Position numbers and translations under genes: made by a program
Notes under the pieces: generated by a model
What the model was told of the DNA's origin: nothing
The model's input: only the letters and a program-made list of their open reading frames with translations
The model's database searches: none
In this document: positions 14,419 through 42,857 of the stretch, piece by piece
How positions within the stretch are numbered: position 1 is the first letter of the stretch
Layout of the letters: each line of letters begins with the position of its first letter
Source: a virus
Reading direction: 5' to 3' (one strand)
Virus record (IMG/VR): IMGVR_UViG_3300009420_003532
Location: 1 to 46,631 of that record
DNA: 46,631 bases

Positions 14419-14979
14419 CTAGTCCCTTAGTATAAAATTACTTTTAGAAAAAAACGTATTCATACAATATTCCCTTTCTACAGGATAGTCATGAGGACAC
14501 CCTCTTTCTCTTTTTTTCTCAGGATCTGTAAAAGTTGCGGATTCTTTCCAATCAAACCCGTATACAGTAACATTTTTTGGATTGCATGTCGATATGTAAT
14601 CGAGTGTAATTAACCCAGTTGTTGGATTTCTATGTCTGCCTGACTTTAGCTTTAAAGGCTTATACAAACTTTCAGGATATACAAAATCGATAGCATGAAT
14701 ATTGTTTGGAGTTCTTGCTTGGTGACCTGCATGCATTTTTTTAACGTGCCCGGGTATTTTGCTGAAAAAACTCTTATATTCAGATGTACTCCAAAATACC
14801 CAAACGTTAGTTTTCTTGCCGTGACTAAGTTTTACGTCCATTCTCGTGTATAACATCGCAGCCTTATTTAATCTTACTACCACGTCGTGAGAATCAATTT
14901 CATCCCCGTGTTGCTTTTTAAATAAAGCCATTGCATTGCCAACGACGGCAACTGTTTTTCCTTCAAACCATTCTTTCAT
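14419..14979 (-). CDS. GT29-like (sialyltransferase-type) glycosyltransferase, copy 1
   Basis: 186 residues. It carries the sialyl-motif pattern of GT29: KTVAVVGNA near the start (nucleotide-donor loop), DSHDVVVRLNKA, then NPTTGLITLDYI and NVTVYGFDW in the second half. GT29 enzymes use CMP-activated sugars. It is a close paralogue of the next gene and of 22528-23064, each starting MKE-x-FEGKTV. No membrane segment, so it acts in the cytoplasm. The acceptor is unknown. Phage-encoded KdsA and KdsB suggest CMP-Kdo as a donor, which is inference. Confidence 0.82.
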   Translation of the reverse strand: MKEWFEGKTVAVVGNAMALFKKQHGDEIDSHDVVVRLNKAAMLYTRMDVKLSHGKKTNVWVFWSTSEYKSFFSKIPGHVKKMHAGHQARTPNNIHAIDFVYPESLYKPLKLKSGRHRNPTTGLITLDYISTCNPKNVTVYGFDWKESATFTDPEKKRERGCPHDYPVEREYCMNTFFSKSNFILRD

Positions 14980-15485
14980 TTTTTTAATTTAAAAACCTCT
15001 TTTTGCTTTTCGAAAAACCGCCTATGGCAATAGTCTTCTTCTAAAGCAAAGTTGTGTCTTTCGTCAATCATTTTTTTATCATGAAATGAGGGTGTTTTTT
15101 TCCAATCAAAACCGTAAACATTTACAGTCTTTGGGTTGTATAAAGATATTAAATGTAATATTCTTAGTCCAGTTGACGGCCGGTGATGACCTAAATCAGC
15201 TTTTAACCATTCTGCATCTATTGCAGGATGGTGCAAAATTTCAACGATATGATCGCATGTTTTACTTGTCATTCGGTTTGGGTTCATTGTTTTAAACCAA
15301 TTTAAAAACCATACATCAGTTCGGTTTCCGTGAGATACTAAATCTTGTGGCTTTAACATAAAAAAACCGCGTTTAATTCTACAAACAATTTCAGCTGTAT
15401 CTATTTCTTTACCGTATTTGCTATCAAACAAACTTCTTGCGTTGCCAACGACGGAAACAGTTTTTCCTTCAAACACTTCTTTCAT
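14976..15485 (-). CDS. GT29-like glycosyltransferase, copy 2
   Basis: 169 residues, overlapping copy 1 by four bases. Same plan: KTVSVVGNARSLF, DTAEIVCRIKRG, RPSTGLRILHLI and TVNVYGFDWKK. It is slightly shorter than copies 1 and 3 in the middle region and has diverged at the DVVVR block to EIVCR, so donor or acceptor may differ. The tandem position suggests local duplication. Confidence 0.8.
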   Translation of the reverse strand: MKEVFEGKTVSVVGNARSLFDSKYGKEIDTAEIVCRIKRGFFMLKPQDLVSHGNRTDVWFLNWFKTMNPNRMTSKTCDHIVEILHHPAIDAEWLKADLGHHRPSTGLRILHLISLYNPKTVNVYGFDWKKTPSFHDKKMIDERHNFALEEDYCHRRFFEKQKEVFKLKK

Positions 15486-22527: not shown

Positions 22528-23064
22528 TCAATTCCTTAATTCAAATTGGTTATTAAAAAAGTTATCATAGCAATACTTCTTTTCTTCCTCAAAGTTGTGT
22601 GCTATACATTTTCTTTTTTCGTGCCAAGAATATGTTTGTTTCCAATCAAAACCGTAGACATTAACATTTTTCGGATTTTGCTTAGAAATATAATAAAGTA
22701 CTCTTAGTCCTGTTGACGACTTTTTTGTTAGGTTACTATCTAAAGAGTTCCTATCGTCATTTGAAAAAACTACGTCGGCCATGTTAGCAAATTCTGGTGA
22801 TACGTCAATCGTATCCATTTGCATTTTATGTGCATTTTTTGAAGCTGGCTGTTGGGCCCACGGCTTATTTTGGCGTATGTTTTGCATACACCATACATCG
22901 AGCTTCATACCCATTTTATTACTGAATTGAGTGAATTTATATCCACCGCGATTAATTCTTACAACAACCTCTGCGGTATCTATTTCTTTACCGTAATTTT
23001 TTTCTAAAAGAGACGCGGCATTTCCCACAACCGCTACGGTCTTACCTTCAAACCATTCTTTCAT
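22528..23064 (-). CDS. GT29-like glycosyltransferase, copy 3
   Basis: 178 residues with KTVAVVGNAASLLEKNYG, DTAEVVVRINRGG, KSSTGLRVLYYI and NVNVYGFDWKQT. It is first in the glycan transcript, directly behind a late promoter (23114-23121). It lies 7.5 kb from copies 1 and 2, so the duplication is not only tandem. Same donor argument as copy 1: GT29 enzymes use CMP-sugars. Confidence 0.82.
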   Translation of the reverse strand: MKEWFEGKTVAVVGNAASLLEKNYGKEIDTAEVVVRINRGGYKFTQFSNKMGMKLDVWCMQNIRQNKPWAQQPASKNAHKMQMDTIDVSPEFANMADVVFSNDDRNSLDSNLTKKSSTGLRVLYYISKQNPKNVNVYGFDWKQTYSWHEKRKCIAHNFEEEKKYCYDNFFNNQFELRN

Positions 23065-23457: not shown

Positions 23458-23745
23458 TTATGTCCACCCTTTAAGATTTCTGTTTACTTCTGCAGTTGTT
23501 TCTCTTTCGCGGATAGAGTCACGGTAAAACTGGTCGTTAACAACAGCCATGATGTCGCCACGGCACAAGCCAATGTCTCTTAATTCTCTATTTGAAAGGG
23601 AGGATAATTCTTTATATGATTGGCGTCTTAGTGCGCGCTTATTCATAAATTTGTCTAAAGCTACGAGTAAAGCTTTGATTTTTGCAAATACTGCTGATAT
23701 CGTAGTAAATTTATATAAAGGTTGTGATTGAAGTGTGTGTGCCAC
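23458..23745 (-). CDS. DUF1127 (YjiS-like) protein
   Basis: 95 residues from a GTG at 23745 with AAGGAGAT in front. Residues about 40-68 match the DUF1127 signature: RRQSYKELSSLSNRELRDIGLCRGDI, an Arg-rich helix ending in D-I-G-L-x-R. Such small proteins are abundant in alphaproteobacteria, where they have been linked to phosphate and carbon metabolism and RNA turnover. The N-terminal 35 residues are an extra hydrophobic helix. Its presence supports an alphaproteobacterial host and suggests capture of a host regulator. Confidence 0.82.
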   Translation of the reverse strand: MAHTLQSQPLYKFTTISAVFAKIKALLVALDKFMNKRALRRQSYKELSSLSNRELRDIGLCRGDIMAVVNDQFYRDSIRERETTAEVNRNLKGWT

Positions 23746-28202: not shown

Positions 28203-29273
28203 TTAAATTGCATCATTGATAGGTGCAACCTGATCGTCTTCACGCATAATACTACCTGAGGCACCGATAGTAAAGTTTTTACGAACAAATTCTTTGAAAT
28301 CTGTTTTTTCAAACATCATATTCCAAAAATCGCCGTTGTCATTTACTTCTTTAGCTCGCATTAGTTTATCTGAAATAATTTCACCAGTTGCAGGATCAAC
28401 TGCTTCGTACCAACCAACTTTTGGCTTGCGAAGATATCCACCCTTTTCAGCAACATCCATTAGACCAGACCATTTAACAATACCGCCTTCCCAAGACACG
28501 GAAATTGGAATTTTAGATTTTTCCTTAACGTGTCTTGATTTTTCAATATTAATTACAAAGTGATAACCTTGGATCTCAGTGCCAACTTTATCTTGTTGAC
28601 GACCGACGATCCAAATAGCGTCAGCCGAATAGTAGATGCCCGTACCGCCCGATACGATAGCCTTAGGAAATAGACCAATCTCTTGATATGTGTGGTTAAC
28701 AGCAATCAAAGGAATATCTTTAAGATTAAGGTGTGGAGTTATAATACGAAACAACGACTTAAGAGCTTTTGCGCGAGACATATCAGCGACTGATTTCTCG
28801 TTCATTGCGTCTTCAACTTCTTTCTTTGAAGCCAAGTTACCAACTGAGTCAATGATAATACATACGTGATCTTTCTTATCAATTTGATCAAGTTGGCTAG
28901 CAATATCAAACTTAAGCTCTTCGACGTTCGTAATAGGCGTATGTACTACACGATCCATATTGATGCCAAAAGACTCAAAATAAGATTGTGGTGTGCCAAA
29001 TTCAGAATCATAGAACAACATTATAGCATCTTCGTATTTGTTCATATAAGCGGCCGCGGTGAGCAGAGCAAATGCAGATTTAAAGTGTTTAGATGGACCA
29101 GCTAATACTAGCAATCCTGGGCTTAAGCCACCGTCAATGTCGCCAGACAACGCGACATTAACCATAGGAACTGGCGTTGGTGCCATCTCCTTTTTACCAA
29201 AAACTTTTGACTCTGATAATTGAGCTGTAAGTTTAATAGTACTATTTTTTACGAGTTTGTCTAATAGACTCAT
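28203..29273 (-). CDS. uvsX: Recombinase UvsX (RecA family)
   Basis: 356 residues. It forms filaments on ssDNA for strand exchange and recombination-dependent replication. Walker A is GPSKHFKS at 59-66, the form seen in T4 UvsX. HVCIIIDSVGNLASKKE holds Walker B, PLIAVNHTYQE the sensor strand, and VSGGTGIYYSADAIW the L2-like region. The acidic C terminus (REDDQ) is typical. The start overlaps the stop of the preceding small gene. Confidence 0.95.
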   Translation of the reverse strand: MSLLDKLVKNSTIKLTAQLSESKVFGKKEMAPTPVPMVNVALSGDIDGGLSPGLLVLAGPSKHFKSAFALLTAAAYMNKYEDAIMLFYDSEFGTPQSYFESFGINMDRVVHTPITNVEELKFDIASQLDQIDKKDHVCIIIDSVGNLASKKEVEDAMNEKSVADMSRAKALKSLFRIITPHLNLKDIPLIAVNHTYQEIGLFPKAIVSGGTGIYYSADAIWIVGRQQDKVGTEIQGYHFVINIEKSRHVKEKSKIPISVSWEGGIVKWSGLMDVAEKGGYLRKPKVGWYEAVDPATGEIISDKLMRAKEVNDNGDFWNMMFEKTDFKEFVRKNFTIGASGSIMREDDQVAPINDAI

Positions 29274-29646: not shown

Positions 29647-30576
29647 TTAGCCTTTAACGAGGTCTCTAAACATTGCAAGATCTTCATCATCGTCACTGAT
29701 AGTATCTGCTTGTGCGGTAGATGTCTCTTCTTTCATTGTAGGCGCCTCAACACTTTTACCAAACTTGCTCATGTCAAGATCGTTGTCAGTTTCATCTTCT
29801 GCCGTGTTTGTCGACAGAGGAGAATCACCAGTAAGATTTAATACACGATACAGTTTGGCTTTAAGATCTCCATAAGACTTAAAGTTCTTTTCATCAACCA
29901 ATTCTTGTAGCGGGTGCTGTTGTTTCCAAGTGCTCTCCAATTTGTCGTCATCATCAAATAGCGGAGAAGGACTATCAAATTCAGATTTATCGTAGTTTGG
30001 ATAACCTTCGAATTGGCGGATTTTCAAACGGAAATTTGCACCTTCCCAGAAGTCAAACGGATTTACCGCTGCTTCATCTTCAAAAGATGGGTTCATCAAA
30101 TCATTCAGTTTGTCAAAGATTTTCTTACCAAACTGATACATGAACACTTTTCCATCATTATCAGGATTACCGCTATCCTTAATTACAAGGATGTTCGATA
30201 TATACTTAAGGCGACGCTTTTGTTTACGGGCTTGCTCTTTATCTGCATCAACTCCAGAATTCCACAGCTTACCATTAAATTCTGATACTGGGTCATCTTT
30301 TCCGATGGTCGTGAGTGAGTTTTCGATATACCATAGACCGGTTGGACCTTGAAATCCGTGGTCCCAGATTCTGGTGAATGGCATTTCTTCTCCTGATGTA
30401 GGAGGAAGGAAGCGAATGATTGCGAAGCCGTTACCCGCTTTATCACGTGTTGGTTTCCAAAATTTACCTTCGTTGGGGTCTGAGTAGCTCTTTGTAGCGA
30501 TTGACGAGAGCTGTGAGTTCAACTTATCGAGTGAAGATGAACGGTTCTTTTTAAGTGCATCAAATGACATTGTCAT
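29647..30576 (-). CDS. 32: Single-stranded DNA-binding protein gp32
   Basis: 309 residues from the ATG at 30576, which follows AGGAGAT. It coats ssDNA and organises UvsX, gp59 and polymerase. The basic N terminus (LKKNRSSSLDKLNSQL) corresponds to the T4 LAST-type cooperativity motif. The core holds FAIIRFLPPTSGEEMPFTRIWDHGF and the C terminus is acidic (ISDDDEDLAMF), the partner-binding tail of gp32. The T4 zinc Cys set is not obvious. Late promoter at 30652-30659 gives separate late expression. Confidence 0.92.
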   Translation of the reverse strand: MTMSFDALKKNRSSSLDKLNSQLSSIATKSYSDPNEGKFWKPTRDKAGNGFAIIRFLPPTSGEEMPFTRIWDHGFQGPTGLWYIENSLTTIGKDDPVSEFNGKLWNSGVDADKEQARKQKRRLKYISNILVIKDSGNPDNDGKVFMYQFGKKIFDKLNDLMNPSFEDEAAVNPFDFWEGANFRLKIRQFEGYPNYDKSEFDSPSPLFDDDDKLESTWKQQHPLQELVDEKNFKSYGDLKAKLYRVLNLTGDSPLSTNTAEDETDNDLDMSKFGKSVEAPTMKEETSTAQADTISDDDEDLAMFRDLVKG

Positions 30577-30650
30577 ATTTGTATCTCCTGATTTTGCGTT
30601 ATATAGCATTGGTTTGTATTGCGATGTATGTTGTGGATCTATTCCACCAT

Positions 30651-31253
30651 CTATTTATATTCAAAAAAGTGTTCTTTAGTAATCTTTGAAAACTTTTTTT
30701 GATCTATATCTAAGAACGGATAGTATTTCTTAGATAATTTCATTATATCACGTGCAACGAATTTGTCAACTACTTTTTCTTCCCAATAGTCATAAACATT
30801 AGAAATTTTTGAAAGTATAGTGAACGTTTCAATAGATATTTCCTTCTGAAAATACATAGACATAATATGAGGGTGTTGCCCACTAATAACTGATAAGTTG
30901 TCGTGATAATTGTCTTTTAGTTTTTTTAAATCTGTTTTATACAAATGAGTTAAAGAATCCATCTTTCTTTCCCATTCCGCATAAATTTCTTCTCCGCGGT
31001 CTTCAACTATTTCACGTATCCAAGCCTTAGGGTTGTGCACCAAATTGGCGATAAGAATTTTTAATGGATCGTCTTTTTTAGATAGTTTATAGAAGAAGAA
31101 CGCGTCGTTTCGTGTTTGAAATTTTTCAAAAGAAGCTCGTATTTTACCATTATATTTGTGGTAATCATAACTATCAGTATCAAAATGTTTCTTAAGTGCT
31201 AGGTAGTTAACATAAACTCGAAATGAAGCTTCGTTAGCATAATTCAATGGCAC
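30651..31253 (-). CDS. 59: Helicase loader gp59
   Basis: 200 residues from a GTG at 31253, inside the end of the preceding gene. The N terminus FRVYVNYLALKKHFDTDSYDYHKYNGK matches T4 gp59 (listed as landmarks: Y14, L18, H23, D30, Y31), and RNDAFFFYKLSKK follows, as in the loader family. It loads gp41 onto gp32-coated forks. Mostly helical, basic. Stop overlaps the late promoter for gp32. Confidence 0.88.
   Translation of the reverse strand: MPLNYANEASFRVYVNYLALKKHFDTDSYDYHKYNGKIRASFEKFQTRNDAFFFYKLSKKDDPLKILIANLVHNPKAWIREIVEDRGEEIYAEWERKMDSLTHLYKTDLKKLKDNYHDNLSVISGQHPHIMSMYFQKEISIETFTILSKISNVYDYWEEKVVDKFVARDIMKLSKKYYPFLDIDQKKFSKITKEHFFEYK
30652..30659 (-). promoter_or_regulatory. T4-type late promoter for gp32
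   Basis: TATAAATA on the minus strand, 76 bases upstream of the gp32 ATG and overlapping the gp59 stop. Confidence 0.65.
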
Positions 31254-31467
31254 CGTTCTGTTCCCTTTTTACCAATTTCATTAGTACAGCTTCAGATCTA
31301 ATTTTTTCTTTTATGATAGAGGATTTTTTAACTATATTAGCAACAGTTTCTATTTCAAGATTGTTCTGCTTCGCGTAATCAACTAGCGCATCGATATATG
31401 TTGCTCCGTTTTTTAGCTTTTCTTCTATAGCCATGTGTATTTTTTCAGGTGTTCTAGTTTCTATCAT
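31234..31467 (-). CDS. 33: gp33-like late transcription coactivator
   Basis: 77 residues. The plan (HMAIEEKLKNGATYIDALVDY, NNLEIETVANIVK, then KIRSEAVLMKLVKRE) matches the short coactivator family typified by T4 gp33, which bridges RNA polymerase and the sliding clamp at TATAAATA promoters. Its presence fits the many such promoters in this window. It is smaller than T4 gp33 (112 residues). It overlaps gp59 by 20 bases. Confidence 0.68.
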   Translation of the reverse strand: MIETRTPEKIHMAIEEKLKNGATYIDALVDYAKQNNLEIETVANIVKKSSIIKEKIRSEAVLMKLVKREQNGAIELC

Positions 31468-32478: not shown

Positions 32479-33168
32479 TTATTTTTCCTCAAATAATACA
32501 TTGTTTACATAATGATTTTTATCTTCTTCAGATACTCCCATAGCTAAGATTGAACTGTGCAATCGCGGATCCATTTTTTTATTTTGGCAATATCTGTTGA
32601 GCAGTGGAAGAGTGTCACGGTTTGATACAAACGCGTTTTCTTCTAAATTTTCAATATAAAAATCTATCAAATCAGTTGTTACTTGAATGAATTGGTCAAG
32701 TTCTACGCCATTGCCGATGTTACCAACTGCAATCGCATCACCTGAAAATATTTCTCGAGCCCAGAGTGGCAAGTCTATTGTGTTATTCCATTTCAAATTA
32801 TCAATTCGGCGTTCCATATAGTCACTATACGGGTGAGGAAATCCAAACAAAGGTGAAAAATCCATAAATGCGCCTGCAATATTTTCAGTACTGGCTACGA
32901 TATCAAATCCAAGAATTGGAAGTTCTACACTTTCACGTGGAAACACATTAACATGCATTAGCCACAATCCCTTATTATCTTTAGGCATGATTGTTTTTAA
33001 ATGGCACTTGCTAACAGACTCTGAAGACCAAAACGTGTCGTTCCAATTTTCAAATTTTAGATTATTCATTTTTGGTTCTTCGTAGCGATTAAGCGCTTCG
33101 TCGAACTTTGTTTCTATATGTTTAGAAACTGCATTAAGTTTTTGCCACAGTTTTGGTGTCTGTTTCAT
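32479..33168 (-). CDS. Ferredoxin-dependent bilin reductase (PcyA/PebS/PcyX family)
   Basis: 229 residues. It would reduce biliverdin, made by the heme oxygenase next door, using reduced ferredoxin. Family landmarks are ELPILGFDIVAS (D89), AFMDFSPLFGFPHP (D103, the central acidic residue) and the C-terminal KKMDPRLHSSILAMG with D200, then NHYVNNVLF. D200 is the type of second acidic residue seen in reductases making phycoerythrobilin. Oceanic phage reductases such as PebS and PcyX are known. I read this as the PcyX-like branch but cannot confirm it by eye. The start overlaps the heme oxygenase gene by 35 bases, with GGAAGA upstream. Confidence 0.88.
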   Translation of the reverse strand: MKQTPKLWQKLNAVSKHIETKFDEALNRYEEPKMNNLKFENWNDTFWSSESVSKCHLKTIMPKDNKGLWLMHVNVFPRESVELPILGFDIVASTENIAGAFMDFSPLFGFPHPYSDYMERRIDNLKWNNTIDLPLWAREIFSGDAIAVGNIGNGVELDQFIQVTTDLIDFYIENLEENAFVSNRDTLPLLNRYCQNKKMDPRLHSSILAMGVSEEDKNHYVNNVLFEEK

Positions 33169-33715
33169 TAAAATATTCTTCCAATTCTTCTAAGAAATTT
33201 TGAACCATCGCGAAACAAACTTTAGCTTCGTCAACGAGTCCATCGTGCAATTTTTCTCTTATTACGTTTTTAAGGTCTTCGGTGTTACCTTCAAATTCAT
33301 AAAAGCTAATTGGTCCTGGAACTAATTTTTTAATAATTTGCCCGCCCGATAAATCTCCCATATGTCTTACATAGACGTGAGCAAAAAGTTTATCTTTGTT
33401 AGAGTGTATATCCCTAATGTGTGTTACATAATCTTTCGACGCCTGAAAAATTGGTGCTTGTTTAAAGTCATTTTCGGTTTCTATACGCAAGACATCCTCA
33501 GTTAACGGAAGTACTCTTTGAAGGTTTGACATTTCACCAGCGAAAATACCCTGCATTTCAGCGTAGTATTCTAAATTAGTATAAACATATAATTGATTTT
33601 TGAGATATACGTAATATTGCTCTGGAGTAATATTCTTTTTTATCATCCTGTTCATAAATGCTGCTCTTTCAGCATTGCGATGTGCTTCTTTGGTAAGTTC
33701 TTTTAAATTATTCAT
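33134..33715 (-). CDS. Heme oxygenase
   Basis: 193 residues. It opens heme to biliverdin, iron and CO with reduced ferredoxin. Proximal His H12 lies in ELTKEAHRNAER and the distal helix is YVRHMGDLSGGQIIKK (G120-G125), the signature of HO-1/PbsA-type enzymes. Short and soluble, without the C-terminal anchor of animal HO. It is first in the operon behind a perfect sigma70 promoter (33743-33771) and its 3' end overlaps the bilin reductase. Confidence 0.93.
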   Translation of the reverse strand: MNNLKELTKEAHRNAERAAFMNRMIKKNITPEQYYVYLKNQLYVYTNLEYYAEMQGIFAGEMSNLQRVLPLTEDVLRIETENDFKQAPIFQASKDYVTHIRDIHSNKDKLFAHVYVRHMGDLSGGQIIKKLVPGPISFYEFEGNTEDLKNVIREKLHDGLVDEAKVCFAMVQNFLEELEEYFNETDTKTVAKT

Positions 33716-33742
33716 TGTTTAATGCCCCGCCTTTATTCAATT

Positions 33743-33771
33743 ATTATATACAGTTTTTTTGAATTTGTCAA
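33743..33771 (-). promoter_or_regulatory. Perfect-consensus sigma70 promoter for the bilin operon
   Basis: TTGACA (33771-33766), exactly 17 bases, TATAAT (33748-33743) on the minus strand, 28 bases upstream of the heme oxygenase ATG. It predicts early, strong transcription. Confidence 0.85.
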
Positions 33772-35131: not shown

Positions 35132-35851
35132 TTAATTTTCCTTTGTATATTTACAATAATGGTTCATACCGTGGTCGTATGCACCGTCAAAAGGCATGCC
35201 TTTTTTTATAGCTCTCCATCGGCCACGCCACTTATCTTTTAATCTTTGAGTTGGTGTAAACGGTCTAATGTTACCATGATAATTAATATAACGAGGAGGG
35301 CAATGGTGTACATAACCCATAAGAGCTAGCGGTATTGATGTAACTATATCGTTGTTATTTACATGTCGATAATGTTCTACATTAGAAAAAGATTTTACAA
35401 ACTTACGCGTTCCAACTCTCGGAGAGCCATATGTGTACAGAGCTTCTACTTCATCTTTTAAACGGCTAGCAGCAATTGTTGCCATTGCCCCACCTAACGA
35501 GTGCCCAGTAATATATAGTTCTTTATCTTTATCCATTTCAATTAATTCAACTATTTTGTCCCAAATTTTTTCTAATTCGTTTTGAAATCCATTATGAACT
35601 CTTCCACCTACTTGAGCTTTATCAGGCCAAGCGTTAAGATCTGCTAATATATCAGAAAATTCATTCGGCTCTGTTCCTCTAAAGCACAATACAATTTCTT
35701 CATCATTCCATACAACATGACATTGAGCGCCATCGTTTTCAATAAAAGAGTGCCCGGGGTATCCGAGTTTTTTATATTTAGCCTTACCTGGAGATTTATC
35801 GAGGTATGCTATTCCTGCCATTGCGGCCATTTTGGAACAATGTATTAACAT
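35132..35851 (-). CDS. Class 3 lipase-like alpha/beta hydrolase
   Basis: 239 residues. The nucleophile elbow is TGHSLGGAMA with S118, the acid is probably D168 in NNNDIVTSIP, and the late YDHGMNHY supplies a His. VLCFRGTEP and YGSPRVG are family landmarks of lipase_3. No signal peptide is visible, so it may act in the cytoplasm or be carried in the virion. It could alter host membrane lipids or aid lysis. Start ATG at 35851 with AAGGAAA upstream. Confidence 0.88.
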   Translation of the reverse strand: MLIHCSKMAAMAGIAYLDKSPGKAKYKKLGYPGHSFIENDGAQCHVVWNDEEIVLCFRGTEPNEFSDILADLNAWPDKAQVGGRVHNGFQNELEKIWDKIVELIEMDKDKELYITGHSLGGAMATIAASRLKDEVEALYTYGSPRVGTRKFVKSFSNVEHYRHVNNNDIVTSIPLALMGYVHHCPPRYINYHGNIRPFTPTQRLKDKWRGRWRAIKKGMPFDGAYDHGMNHYCKYTKEN

Positions 35852-39717: not shown

Positions 39718-40512
39718 TTAGAAGTTAAAGCTTAGTTTAATAGTTGGAGAAAGCTCTTCTGAGTTAAGGTTATAAGATGCTCCGCCAGTAATATCTGCGC
39801 CACCAAAACCGTAAACATATTCAGCGCCTACATTTTGTAATGCGTCATCGCTATCACCGTTCAAATATCCTACAGCACCGAATGCATTAGCAACAAGTTC
39901 GTAACCAGCTGTTTCAGCATCTACGTCATATGTTAATGCACCACCAAGTGATGCAACACCAAGATCCACGCCGTTAACGCCAGCGCCAACAACGATGTTT
40001 TCTGAGTCTAGGTTATAATCACCGGCTGCAGTGATACCCATCCCTGCAAAGCTACCGAGGGAAAGTGAGCCTTGGACATTGCTAATATCTGTAATATCAG
40101 ATGTGTAATCAGTAAAACCGATGGCAACAGATGCGACCCCCATAGTTACTTGAATTGATTCAGCCATTGCTGGAGCAGCAAGAGTTTGCTCACCTTCAGC
40201 GCCTGGCATTAAGCCATTGTCATCTCCGATTTGCATCGCAAGCGCGCCAACAGTTGTACCGACTGTCCAGTTGTCTAATACAACAGCGTTACCGTCAGAT
40301 GTTGAAAAGTCAAGATCAACTGACGCCATGCCAGCCGCATTAATGCCTAAATCTACACCAGTAGTAGCGCCCCAGTCGCCAGCTGCTGTTTCAGCGAAAC
40401 CAATTGAGAGTTCGCCTGATAGTGTTGGTCCTGTTGGGGCCGGTGTGCCTTCAGCGTATACCGCGTTAGCTAAAACAGTTGTGACTGCTGTTGTGATGAG
40501 TAAATTGCGCAT
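39718..40512 (-). CDS. Outer-membrane porin-like beta-barrel
   Basis: 264 residues from the ATG at 40512 (AAGGAAAG upstream). Signal peptide RNLLITTAVTTVLANAVYA with cleavage before EG. The mature protein is a string of short amphipathic strands with Gly/Ala/Asp loops, as in trimeric or small porins (LSGELSIGFAET ... GVNGVDLGVASLGGALTYD), and it ends in the aromatic SFNF, the signal that outer-membrane barrels use for insertion. No T4 counterpart. Expression of such a barrel could mask or replace a host receptor or alter nutrient uptake. Confidence 0.82.
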   Translation of the reverse strand: MRNLLITTAVTTVLANAVYAEGTPAPTGPTLSGELSIGFAETAAGDWGATTGVDLGINAAGMASVDLDFSTSDGNAVVLDNWTVGTTVGALAMQIGDDNGLMPGAEGEQTLAAPAMAESIQVTMGVASVAIGFTDYTSDITDISNVQGSLSLGSFAGMGITAAGDYNLDSENIVVGAGVNGVDLGVASLGGALTYDVDAETAGYELVANAFGAVGYLNGDSDDALQNVGAEYVYGFGGADITGGASYNLNSEELSPTIKLSFNF

Positions 40513-40596
40513 CTTTATTCTTTCCTTTTGATTTTTAATACTTGTTGTGAATATACACGACTTTTCTGTTGCTAGGTAAGCCGCCAACCCCCTTTG

Positions 40597-41009: not shown

Positions 41010-41198
41010 TCAAGATGCTTCTCTAAACATCGTTTTTCTACCTTCTATACCTATTTGAGTGTCATATATATCTTTTAGCGCTATTTGCATTACACTGGCA
41101 AGCATTAATATCTCTTCATTGCTATCACACATCATAATAGCCTTATCAATCGGCCGCCTGAGTTCTATCATACGCAATTTTACTTTATCATCATCCAT
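41010..41198 (-). CDS. Small helical protein of a conserved T4-like type
   Basis: 62 residues from the ATG at 41198, which overlaps the KdsB stop. DDDKVKLRMIELRRPIDKAI then MMCDSNEEILMLASVMQIAL is a two-helix pattern shared, as I recall, with small marine phage proteins. Unknown function. Confidence 0.6.
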   Translation of the reverse strand: MDDDKVKLRMIELRRPIDKAIMMCDSNEEILMLASVMQIALKDIYDTQIGIEGRKTMFREAS

Positions 41199-41862
41199 TC
41201 CATCTCTCCGCATCTTCTGGGGCGTTTATTTCTATTCCGTTAAACTCAGTTGGAAATACTCCAATGTCCCATCCGTTTTTAAGCCACCGTATTTGCTCTA
41301 AAGCTTCAACCCGTTCTTCCTTAGTATTGGTGAGACCGGGATACATTTCCAATGCCCATCGTTTATATCCATATATACCTAAGTGGTGATCACCATAACC
41401 AGTGATACCTCTTCCAAACCATAGACATTTATCAGCTGCTCTTACTAGCTTAACAGTATTAGGATCATTCTGCAACTCGGGTGGCATTATTGCGCACATA
41501 GTTGTTACGTTGTAGTTTTGCAAATGCCACTCAGTCTTTTCAATCATGTGTTGAGTTACATCAGGCATATCCCCCTGGACATTGATAAACTTATCATAGC
41601 TACTAAAGAAAGAGTTCTTGATAGCACCTGCGCATCGTGCTGTGCCATTTTCATATTCACCCTCTTCAATCCAACACTTGCTCGATCCAAATAAATTAAA
41701 CACTCTCAGATCATCTGTAAGTACATATGTATCTAGACCTGACTTCTTGCACTCATCATATACTCGTTGTATCATGGGGACACCGCCAAGCAGAGTCAAA
41801 GGTTTACCTGGAAATCGCGTGCTTGCAAATCTAGCCGGTATCAGTATTGCCGTTTTAGTCAT
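41191..41862 (-). CDS. kdsB: CMP-Kdo synthetase (KdsB)
   Basis: 223 residues. It activates Kdo to CMP-Kdo with CTP. The start TAILIPARFASTRFPGKPL is the family signature with the CTP-binding loop, followed by VYDECKKSG, NGTARCAGA, KFINVQGDMPDV (the D of the metal site) and HLGIYGYKRWAL. Slightly shorter than bacterial KdsB (about 250). It may feed the GT29-like transferases. A four-base overlap couples it to the preceding gene. Confidence 0.93.
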   Translation of the reverse strand: MTKTAILIPARFASTRFPGKPLTLLGGVPMIQRVYDECKKSGLDTYVLTDDLRVFNLFGSSKCWIEEGEYENGTARCAGAIKNSFFSSYDKFINVQGDMPDVTQHMIEKTEWHLQNYNVTTMCAIMPPELQNDPNTVKLVRAADKCLWFGRGITGYGDHHLGIYGYKRWALEMYPGLTNTKEERVEALEQIRWLKNGWDIGVFPTEFNGIEINAPEDAERWNG

Positions 41863-42002
41863 TGCTTTTTTACATCCATGTTATAGTGTTCGTGGTTCTC
41901 GGTATGATTATCTATTAAACGTTGTATAAACCAATACGGAAGCAAGGAAATTATTATCCAAACACTCCAGAATATTAAATTCCATAAAATTATATCAAAC
42001 AT
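41859..42002 (-). CDS. Small membrane protein between kdsA and kdsB
   Basis: 47 residues. A hydrophobic first half (IILWNLIFWSVWIIISLLPY) with a polar His/Asn-rich end. Its stop overlaps the kdsB start as ATGA, and GGAG lies upstream of the ATG at 42002. Unknown function; inner-membrane by composition. Confidence 0.6.
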   Translation of the reverse strand: MFDIILWNLIFWSVWIIISLLPYWFIQRLIDNHTENHEHYNMDVKKQ

Positions 42003-42035
42003 TAGTTATCTCCAAAACCTTCTGAAGGGTTAGCA

Positions 42036-42857
42036 TCATTTTCCACACCTTTTACAACGTTGATGCGCTTCGTTATTATCAGGTTCTAATGCTTTGCTAA
42101 TCTTAACGATATCACGCACAACTTTTTCAAAGTCATCTAAGCGTAGCATATTAGGCCCATCGGATGGGGCGTTATCGGGATCCGGGTGCACCTCTAAGAA
42201 GAAGTCAGTAATACCCAAAGCAGCAGCAGAACGAGTGAGACCTGGCACGTAAGCACGATTCCCACCAGAACTTTTACCGCTTCCACCAGGTTTTTGGCAC
42301 GAGTGTGTCGCATCAAATACGATCGGAACGCTAAAGTTATCAAGCATGTACTGAATGCCGTTAAAATCAACCACAAGGTTATTATATCCAAAACTAGTTC
42401 CCCTTTCAGTAATCCACACTTCTTTTGCTACGCTGGTCTTACTCAAGATACCACTAACATCCCACGGAGCAAGAAATTGACCCTTCTTAATATTAACAAT
42501 TTTATCCGTCTCACAAGCAGCTTCTAGTAAATCTGTCTGACGACACAGAAATGCTGGGATTTGTAGTACATCTACAGCATCGTTAAATTGTCTTGTAATG
42601 CGATGTACTTGTGTCTTATCATGCACGTCAGTTAGCGTCTTTACATTTAGTGTTTCTTTAATAACCGAAAAATCGCGTAGTGTGGTTCCTATGCCAACGC
42701 CGCGCTGGCCTTCAATACTAGTGCGGTTAGCTTTATCATAGCTGGCTTTAAAAATATATTCAACACCATATTTTGCACAAGTATCAGCGCAATGTTTAGC
42801 AATATCTAATGACATTGATAAGTTTTCGTGTTGGCAAGGACCTGCAATAATTCTCAT
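42036..42857 (-). CDS. kdsA: Kdo-8-phosphate synthase (KdsA)
   Basis: 273 residues. It condenses phosphoenolpyruvate and arabinose-5-phosphate. Landmarks are IAGPCQHENLS (the PEP-binding start), FKASYDKANRTS, TDVHDKTQV, LQIPAFLCRQTDLL, NIKKGQFLAPWD and VFDATHSCQKPGG, all in family order; FLEVHPDPDNAPSDGPNML closes the barrel. The C-terminal tail RCKRCGK with two Cys is unusual. The phage lacks a visible KdsC or KdsD, so the host would supply these steps. Confidence 0.94.
   Translation of the reverse strand: MRIIAGPCQHENLSMSLDIAKHCADTCAKYGVEYIFKASYDKANRTSIEGQRGVGIGTTLRDFSVIKETLNVKTLTDVHDKTQVHRITRQFNDAVDVLQIPAFLCRQTDLLEAACETDKIVNIKKGQFLAPWDVSGILSKTSVAKEVWITERGTSFGYNNLVVDFNGIQYMLDNFSVPIVFDATHSCQKPGGSGKSSGGNRAYVPGLTRSAAALGITDFFLEVHPDPDNAPSDGPNMLRLDDFEKVVRDIVKISKALEPDNNEAHQRCKRCGK

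Follow-up and report, generated by a model that had tools for sequence, protein, structure and literature searches.

A heme oxygenase and bilin reductase cassette of a T4-like marine phage belonging to a viral clade with lysine at the PcyX catalytic aspartate position

Heme oxygenases convert heme to biliverdin, CO and Fe2+, and ferredoxin-dependent bilin reductases (FDBRs) reduce biliverdin using electrons from ferredoxin. The genes hemO, pcyA/X and alaS have been described in marine and freshwater phages, the activity of the viral heme oxygenase (vHemO) has been demonstrated, and cassettes that combine hemO with pcyX are known from pelagiphages such as Mosig (PMC11480375, Wegner et al. 2024). 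Published marine FDBRs have been placed inside PcyX, for which Asp55 is named as a specific catalytic residue (PMC11480375), while Glu76 is specific to PcyA and missing in PcyX (PMC10151467). The acid at this position is the current marker separating the PCB-making PcyA (Glu76) from the PEB-making PcyX (Asp55). The phage cassette of hemO and an FDBR is a kind already known, and pelagiphage Mosig provides a precedent for such a pair in phages whose hosts are not photosynthetic.

We analysed a 46,631-nucleotide stretch of viral DNA (IMG/VR record IMGVR_UViG_3300009420_003532; hereafter the window) that encodes a heme oxygenase and an FDBR within a T4-like gene neighbourhood (Table 1). The heme oxygenase matches its Pfam profile, finds its best PDB homologues at E 5e-14 and carries both the proximal histidine H12 and the distal motif GDLSGG (pattern GDxSGG), the two motifs that an earlier note on this DNA had read from the sequence. 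The ORF coordinates agree with the overlap described there, the heme oxygenase gene lying upstream and sharing 35 bases (33134-33168) with the FDBR gene. The FDBR scores 51.8 bits against PF05996 (Fe_bilin_red; curated cut-off 31), and its nearest solved chain is PcyX_EBK42635 (5owg) at E 4.1e-29, with PcyA trailing at E 3e-8. The AlphaFold model of the FDBR has a mean pLDDT of 88, and Foldseek matched it to structures of PcyA, PcyX, PebB and PebS, with E about 1e-11 for PcyA and PcyX. Both genes are under purifying selection, with dN/dS of ~0.02-0.13 in close pairs and ~0.2 between the window and copies of the type found in the relative G003. Both products are predicted on these grounds to be active enzymes.

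Table 1. Positions of the cassette and of associated features in the window
Feature	Positions	Strand	Evidence and remarks
UvsX recombinase	28203..29273	-	conserved neighbour of cassette
gp32 ssDNA-binding protein	29647..30609	-	conserved neighbour of cassette
gp59 helicase loader	30651..31253	-	conserved neighbour of cassette
gp33-like late transcription coactivator	31234..31467	-	PF16805 E 2e-12; conserved neighbour of cassette
Third ORF abutting FDBR, T4-like phage gene	31819..32478	-	phrog_3704 E 1e-99
FDBR, 229 aa, Lys58 viral clade	32479..33168	-	Pfam PF05996 E 1.2e-13
Heme oxygenase, 193 aa (H12, GDLSGG)	33134..33715	-	Pfam PF01126 E 4.2e-25, 89.2 bits
Perfect sigma70-type promoter of cassette, TTGACA-N17-TATAAT	33743..33771	-	conserved in subgroup relatives
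Outer-membrane-like protein	39718..40587	-	usually between tmRNA and cassette in clade
Alphaproteobacterial-type permuted tmRNA, tag ANNNFAPSGYAALAA	40555..40981	-	RF01849 100.3 bits; ARAGORN; upstream of cassette

The closest described counterpart is the cassette of Mosig EXVC030M, which related metagenomic phages also carry. Mosig too is a T4-like phage in which the heme oxygenase gene immediately precedes the FDBR gene and overlaps it, and it has a non-photosynthetic alphaproteobacterial host, a kind of host that is probable for the window as well. However, the two cassettes share only 28.6% (FDBR) and 36.9% (heme oxygenase) identity, and the Mosig pair is flanked by a 2OG-oxygenase cluster and by neck genes, whereas that of the window stands beside gp33-gp59-gp32-uvsX. 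They also differ at the catalytic site, with Asp55 in Mosig and Lys58 in the window, whose FDBR falls in a tree clade of its own.

This catalytic-site substitution is the most unusual point of the cassette and was absent from the earlier note. Residue K58 (motif H56-L57-K58) aligns with PcyX Asp55 and PcyA Glu76, so the window FDBR has neither the PcyX-specific aspartate nor an equivalent of the PcyA glutamate. Two IMG/VR scans, the first with patterns that did not include this position, found 493 and 194 relatives, and up to 80 of the best from each were retained. Among the 101 distinct FDBRs in these sets, which are those closest to each query and could miss intermediates at position 58, the residue is Lys in 43 of 43 window-type and Asp in 58 of 58 PcyX-type sequences. 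The remainder of the site is more conventional. H56, H72 and D89 are retained as in PcyX, and D89, the counterpart of the central catalytic aspartate of PcyA (Asp105), is present in all 101 aligned sequences. The aspartates D89, D103 and D200 pointed out previously are all in place, and D103 is as invariant as D89 (101/101), but position 200 is N in 99 of the 101; D200 was rejected as a conserved catalytic residue, being found solely in the window and its 99% relative (2/101).

Comparison with characterized reductases leads to the same site. PcyX_EBK42635 has the FDBR fold, H56, H72 and D89 in common with the window and, like most relatives of the window, N at position 200, but differs in its catalytic Asp55, replaced by Lys clade-wide, and in lacking the D200 of the window. 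PcyA of cyanobacteria, cyanophages and phage CB_2 shares the fold and the equivalents of its His88 and Asp105; its Glu76 is Lys in the window, which falls outside the PcyA branch. PebS of cyanophage P-SSM2 is likewise a phage FDBR, and in our own reading of the alignment its D105/D206 correspond to D89/D200 of the window, yet it is very distant in the tree.

A phylogeny against PcyA, PebS and PcyX had been suggested in the earlier note and, once run, placed the window FDBR in a separate sister clade of PcyX. In the maximum-likelihood tree the Lys58 group forms one clade (100/95) that is sister to PcyX (94/98), with PcyA outside, and the window FDBR lies inside the Lys58 clade (98/93) and not among the PcyX sequences. 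The Lys58 FDBRs are a common viral branch. A cellular source for the clade was considered and rejected: a genome scan recovered four Lys58 genes and four Asp genes on MAG contigs, Lys58 occurred only on those four contigs, and the ones examined bear phage genes. A search of plasmids with a cyanophage PcyA query gave no match. Judged against the literature examined, the Lys58 clade, together with the promoter and heme oxygenase variants found in it, is a new form of this cassette.

Because Lys replaces Asp55/Glu76, the residue rule that distinguishes PEB from PCB makers cannot predict the product of the window FDBR. A 15,16-dihydrobiliverdin- or phycoerythrobilin-type bilin is the likeliest product, although the sequence does not assign it, and K58 could make the protein a two-electron reductase, a slow enzyme or a non-catalytic bilin binder. 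One reading, which we regard as possible but rather doubtful, is that K58 is neutral and the enzyme is a phycoerythrobilin synthase like that of Mosig. Among solved structures PcyX matches far better than any other, and it is also the sister clade; the gene order and overlap are those of Mosig, and H56, H72 and D89 are kept, but identity to the Mosig FDBR is 28.6% and the lysine is fixed clade-wide at what is the PcyX-specific catalytic Asp55 (PMC11480375). We tentatively put forward instead that the Lys58 clade may be a new functional class of bilin reductase, making a bilin other than PEB or PCB (e.g. a two-electron product, or one reduced at another position) that the phages would use inside non-photosynthetic marine alphaproteobacteria in a role outside light harvesting. 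A fixed lysine in a fixed two-gene cassette under strong purifying selection offers a direct test of how this residue sets the product.

The organization of the cassette is highly conserved. A heme oxygenase accompanies the FDBR in 150 of 162 loci, the 12 exceptions being truncated close to the start of the contig, and the cassette occupies one T4-like locus in the order HO-FDBR-gp33-gp59-gp32-uvsX. Across 85 clade loci, the downstream genes include gp33 in 77, gp59 in 72, gp32 in 66 and uvsX in 53, a shortfall that largely reflects short contigs. The third ORF, immediately downstream of the FDBR in the window and not pointed out in the earlier note, is missing from the relatives G002 and G003 and has 78.5% identity to a protein of Synechococcus phage S-SSM5. 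It is labelled ferredoxin in PHROGs, but having only three cysteines and no Pfam match, in a window with no Fer2 domain, it is not an electron donor. Across cyanophages this gene is annotated as PurM or ferredoxin, neither feature being present in the window, and it is S-SSM5-like though the nearest relatives of the UvsX are non-cyanophages. On the upstream side, a conserved block includes a class 3 lipase (35132-35851, minus strand) that is 80-85% identical in G002 and G003. Further upstream, the family at the position of the outer-membrane-like protein occurs in 40 clade loci, at a median of 1.8 kb upstream of the FDBR; the window protein matched no Pfam family, and its real start is probably a downstream ATG because the called start overlaps the 3' end of the tmRNA.

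Expression signals divide the clade. The perfect TTGACA-N17-TATAAT site reported ahead of the cassette was recovered and is retained in related cassettes; the window has four perfect sites with spacing 16-18 compared with 0.02 expected from shuffles. Its description as an early promoter applies, as sequence, to the subgroup of the window only; a T4 late promoter takes its place in the majority of the clade. This subgroup (the window, L004/L037, L038 from G002, L006, and L039 of the G003 type) combines the perfect sigma70-type promoter with the GDLSGG heme oxygenase. Among the other Lys58 cassettes, 27 of the 40 distinct upstream regions have the T4 late promoter TATAAATA ~40 nt before the heme oxygenase, where random stretches give 1.4 and the PcyX side has 3 of 53, and GELHGG replaces GDLSGG in 35 of 36 heme oxygenases outside the subgroup (e.g. 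L046, L062, L068), which still match the Pfam Heme_oxygenase family (E 1e-19). The timing implied by these promoters, early or late, is read from their sequence. The heme oxygenase tree conflicts with the FDBR tree, and a constraint uniting the groups of the FDBR tree was rejected (AU p 1.6e-45). Most simply, heme oxygenase and promoter may have been exchanged as a unit in the subgroup, although rapid divergence could alternatively account for the conflict.

Sequence features indicate that the host is probably a non-photosynthetic alphaproteobacterium, because the tmRNA, terminase, MAG binning and DUF1127 protein all point to this class and the long relatives lack psbA, phycobilisome and phytochrome genes. 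The hint of a non-cyanobacterial, alphaproteobacterial host in the earlier note is thus supported, and its observation of no photosystem or phycobilisome gene extends to the two long collinear relatives of the window, G002 (201 kb) and G003 (183 kb), in which neither psbA nor phycobilisome domains were found. A permuted tmRNA is present in the window, in G002 and G003 and in most clade loci that reach far enough, and is a lineage-wide trait. Its covariance model RF01849 matched Caulobacter only among 14 control genomes. The phage tags fit either the AN(D/E/N)NFAPSG-x-ALAA or the ANANRAP pattern and vary across these T4-like phages (e.g. ANENFAPSGFALAA and ANANRAPKMALAA). Three Lys58 contigs fall in a Rhodobacteraceae bin whose own tmRNA has the similar tag ANDNKAPMALAA. 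In a DNA search of 142 genomes of the class, the G003 tmRNA matched only in this bin with its phage contigs, so this search does not fix the host order, and Rhodobacterales is only suggested. The G003 terminase is nearest to those of Sinorhizobium phages (59%), and the window UvsX is nearest to that of a non-cyanophage. A DUF1127 protein (23458-23745, minus strand), of a family typical of alphaproteobacteria, occurs in the window and G003. FDBR genes were found in 3 of 385 sampled alphaproteobacterial genomes, in one of the three through the phage contigs themselves. We consider it very improbable that the phage infects cyanobacteria and that the pair boosts light harvesting. T4-like core genes are common to the window and cyanophages, and the third ORF, at 78% identity to proteins of Synechococcus phages, is a cyanophage-like trait, but this reading conflicts with the alphaproteobacterial tmRNA, the carriage of DUF1127, the terminase and UvsX affinities, and the failure to find psbA or phycobilisome genes in the 201-kb and 183-kb relatives.

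The likely biochemistry of the cassette is that the heme oxygenase would open heme to biliverdin, CO and iron, and that the FDBR would at once reduce the biliverdin to a reduced linear tetrapyrrole. The donor would be host ferredoxin because no Fer2 (2Fe-2S) ferredoxin was found in the eight phage records. An intact 5-ALA synthase, which would feed this pathway, is encoded in four of these eight records (G002, G395, G396 and G397), and none was found in the window, G003, G398 and G399, several of the eight being fragments. Two of the 5-ALA synthases appeared to have in-frame stops, but these lie just past the protein end and the genes are intact. The four records thus resemble the described vAlaS-vHemO-vPcyA/X cassettes in combining 5-ALA synthase, heme oxygenase and FDBR (PMC11480375), but here the 5-ALA synthase is far from the other two genes, by about 70 kb in G002. 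A ferrochelatase was considered and rejected: the 'putative ferrochelatase' of Mosig matches proteins of G002 and G003 that read as 2OG-Fe(II) oxygenases, and the Mosig protein itself has no Pfam ferrochelatase match.

With 5-ALA synthase encoded in half of these eight records, the reduced bilin, and not the iron, would be the selected product of the cassette. We favour, with reasonable though limited confidence, the reading that the heme oxygenase and FDBR constitute a phage pathway cassette making a reduced bilin, one that evolved apart from its sister, the phage PcyX cassette, and is carried by T4-like marine phages of alphaproteobacteria. Heme synthesis and heme cleavage in one phage make more sense if a tetrapyrrole is the product than if iron is to be released, which weakens the simple iron release raised in the earlier note; a 5-ALA synthase that restores heme lost to the oxygenase is possible. 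It is unlikely, in our view, that the heme oxygenase serves to free iron or remove heme and the FDBR only to clear inhibitory biliverdin. An iron role has been discussed for such cassettes (PMC11480375), and an IscA/ErpA-like Fe-S biogenesis gene (PF01521) lies near the cassette in L058 (3751-4035) and 14 further clade loci. However, the 5-ALA synthase would feed heme synthesis and so iron use, and a dedicated FDBR under strong purifying selection is more than clearance requires. Less probable still is that the cassette provides, during infection, the chromophore of a bilin-binding photoreceptor or globin of the host. In E. coli, the vHemO and vPcyA of phage CB_2 do provide phytochrome with a functional chromophore (PMC11480375), but no phytochrome (PHY) or phycobilisome domain turned up in those relatives that were searched, and the search for a bilin-binding protein that the earlier note proposed accordingly returned neither phytochrome nor phycobiliprotein from them. 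For the favoured reading of a bilin-making cassette, its placement under a putative late promoter in most of the Lys58 clade and the enzyme starting heme synthesis in half of the records both sharpen the question of why phages whose hosts do not photosynthesize would make bilins.

Several further observations concern related contigs and other parts of the window. Contig L200 (335 kb, binned as Neomarinimicrobiota) has an Asp-type FDBR and a heme oxygenase with an alphaproteobacterial-type tmRNA 9 kb away, and probably represents the genome of a large phage that was binned into a MAG. In the window, adjoining phage genes for a KdsB-like CMP-KDO synthetase and the KDO-8-phosphate synthase KdsA are located at 41191-42857 (minus strand), the kdsB gene having matches in only six known phage records. 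Three related proteins at 14419-15485 and 22528-23064 (minus strand), two of which match GT29 sialyltransferase, sit in a large block of sugar-modification genes together with GT8, SDR, aminotransferase-like and dehydratase-like genes.
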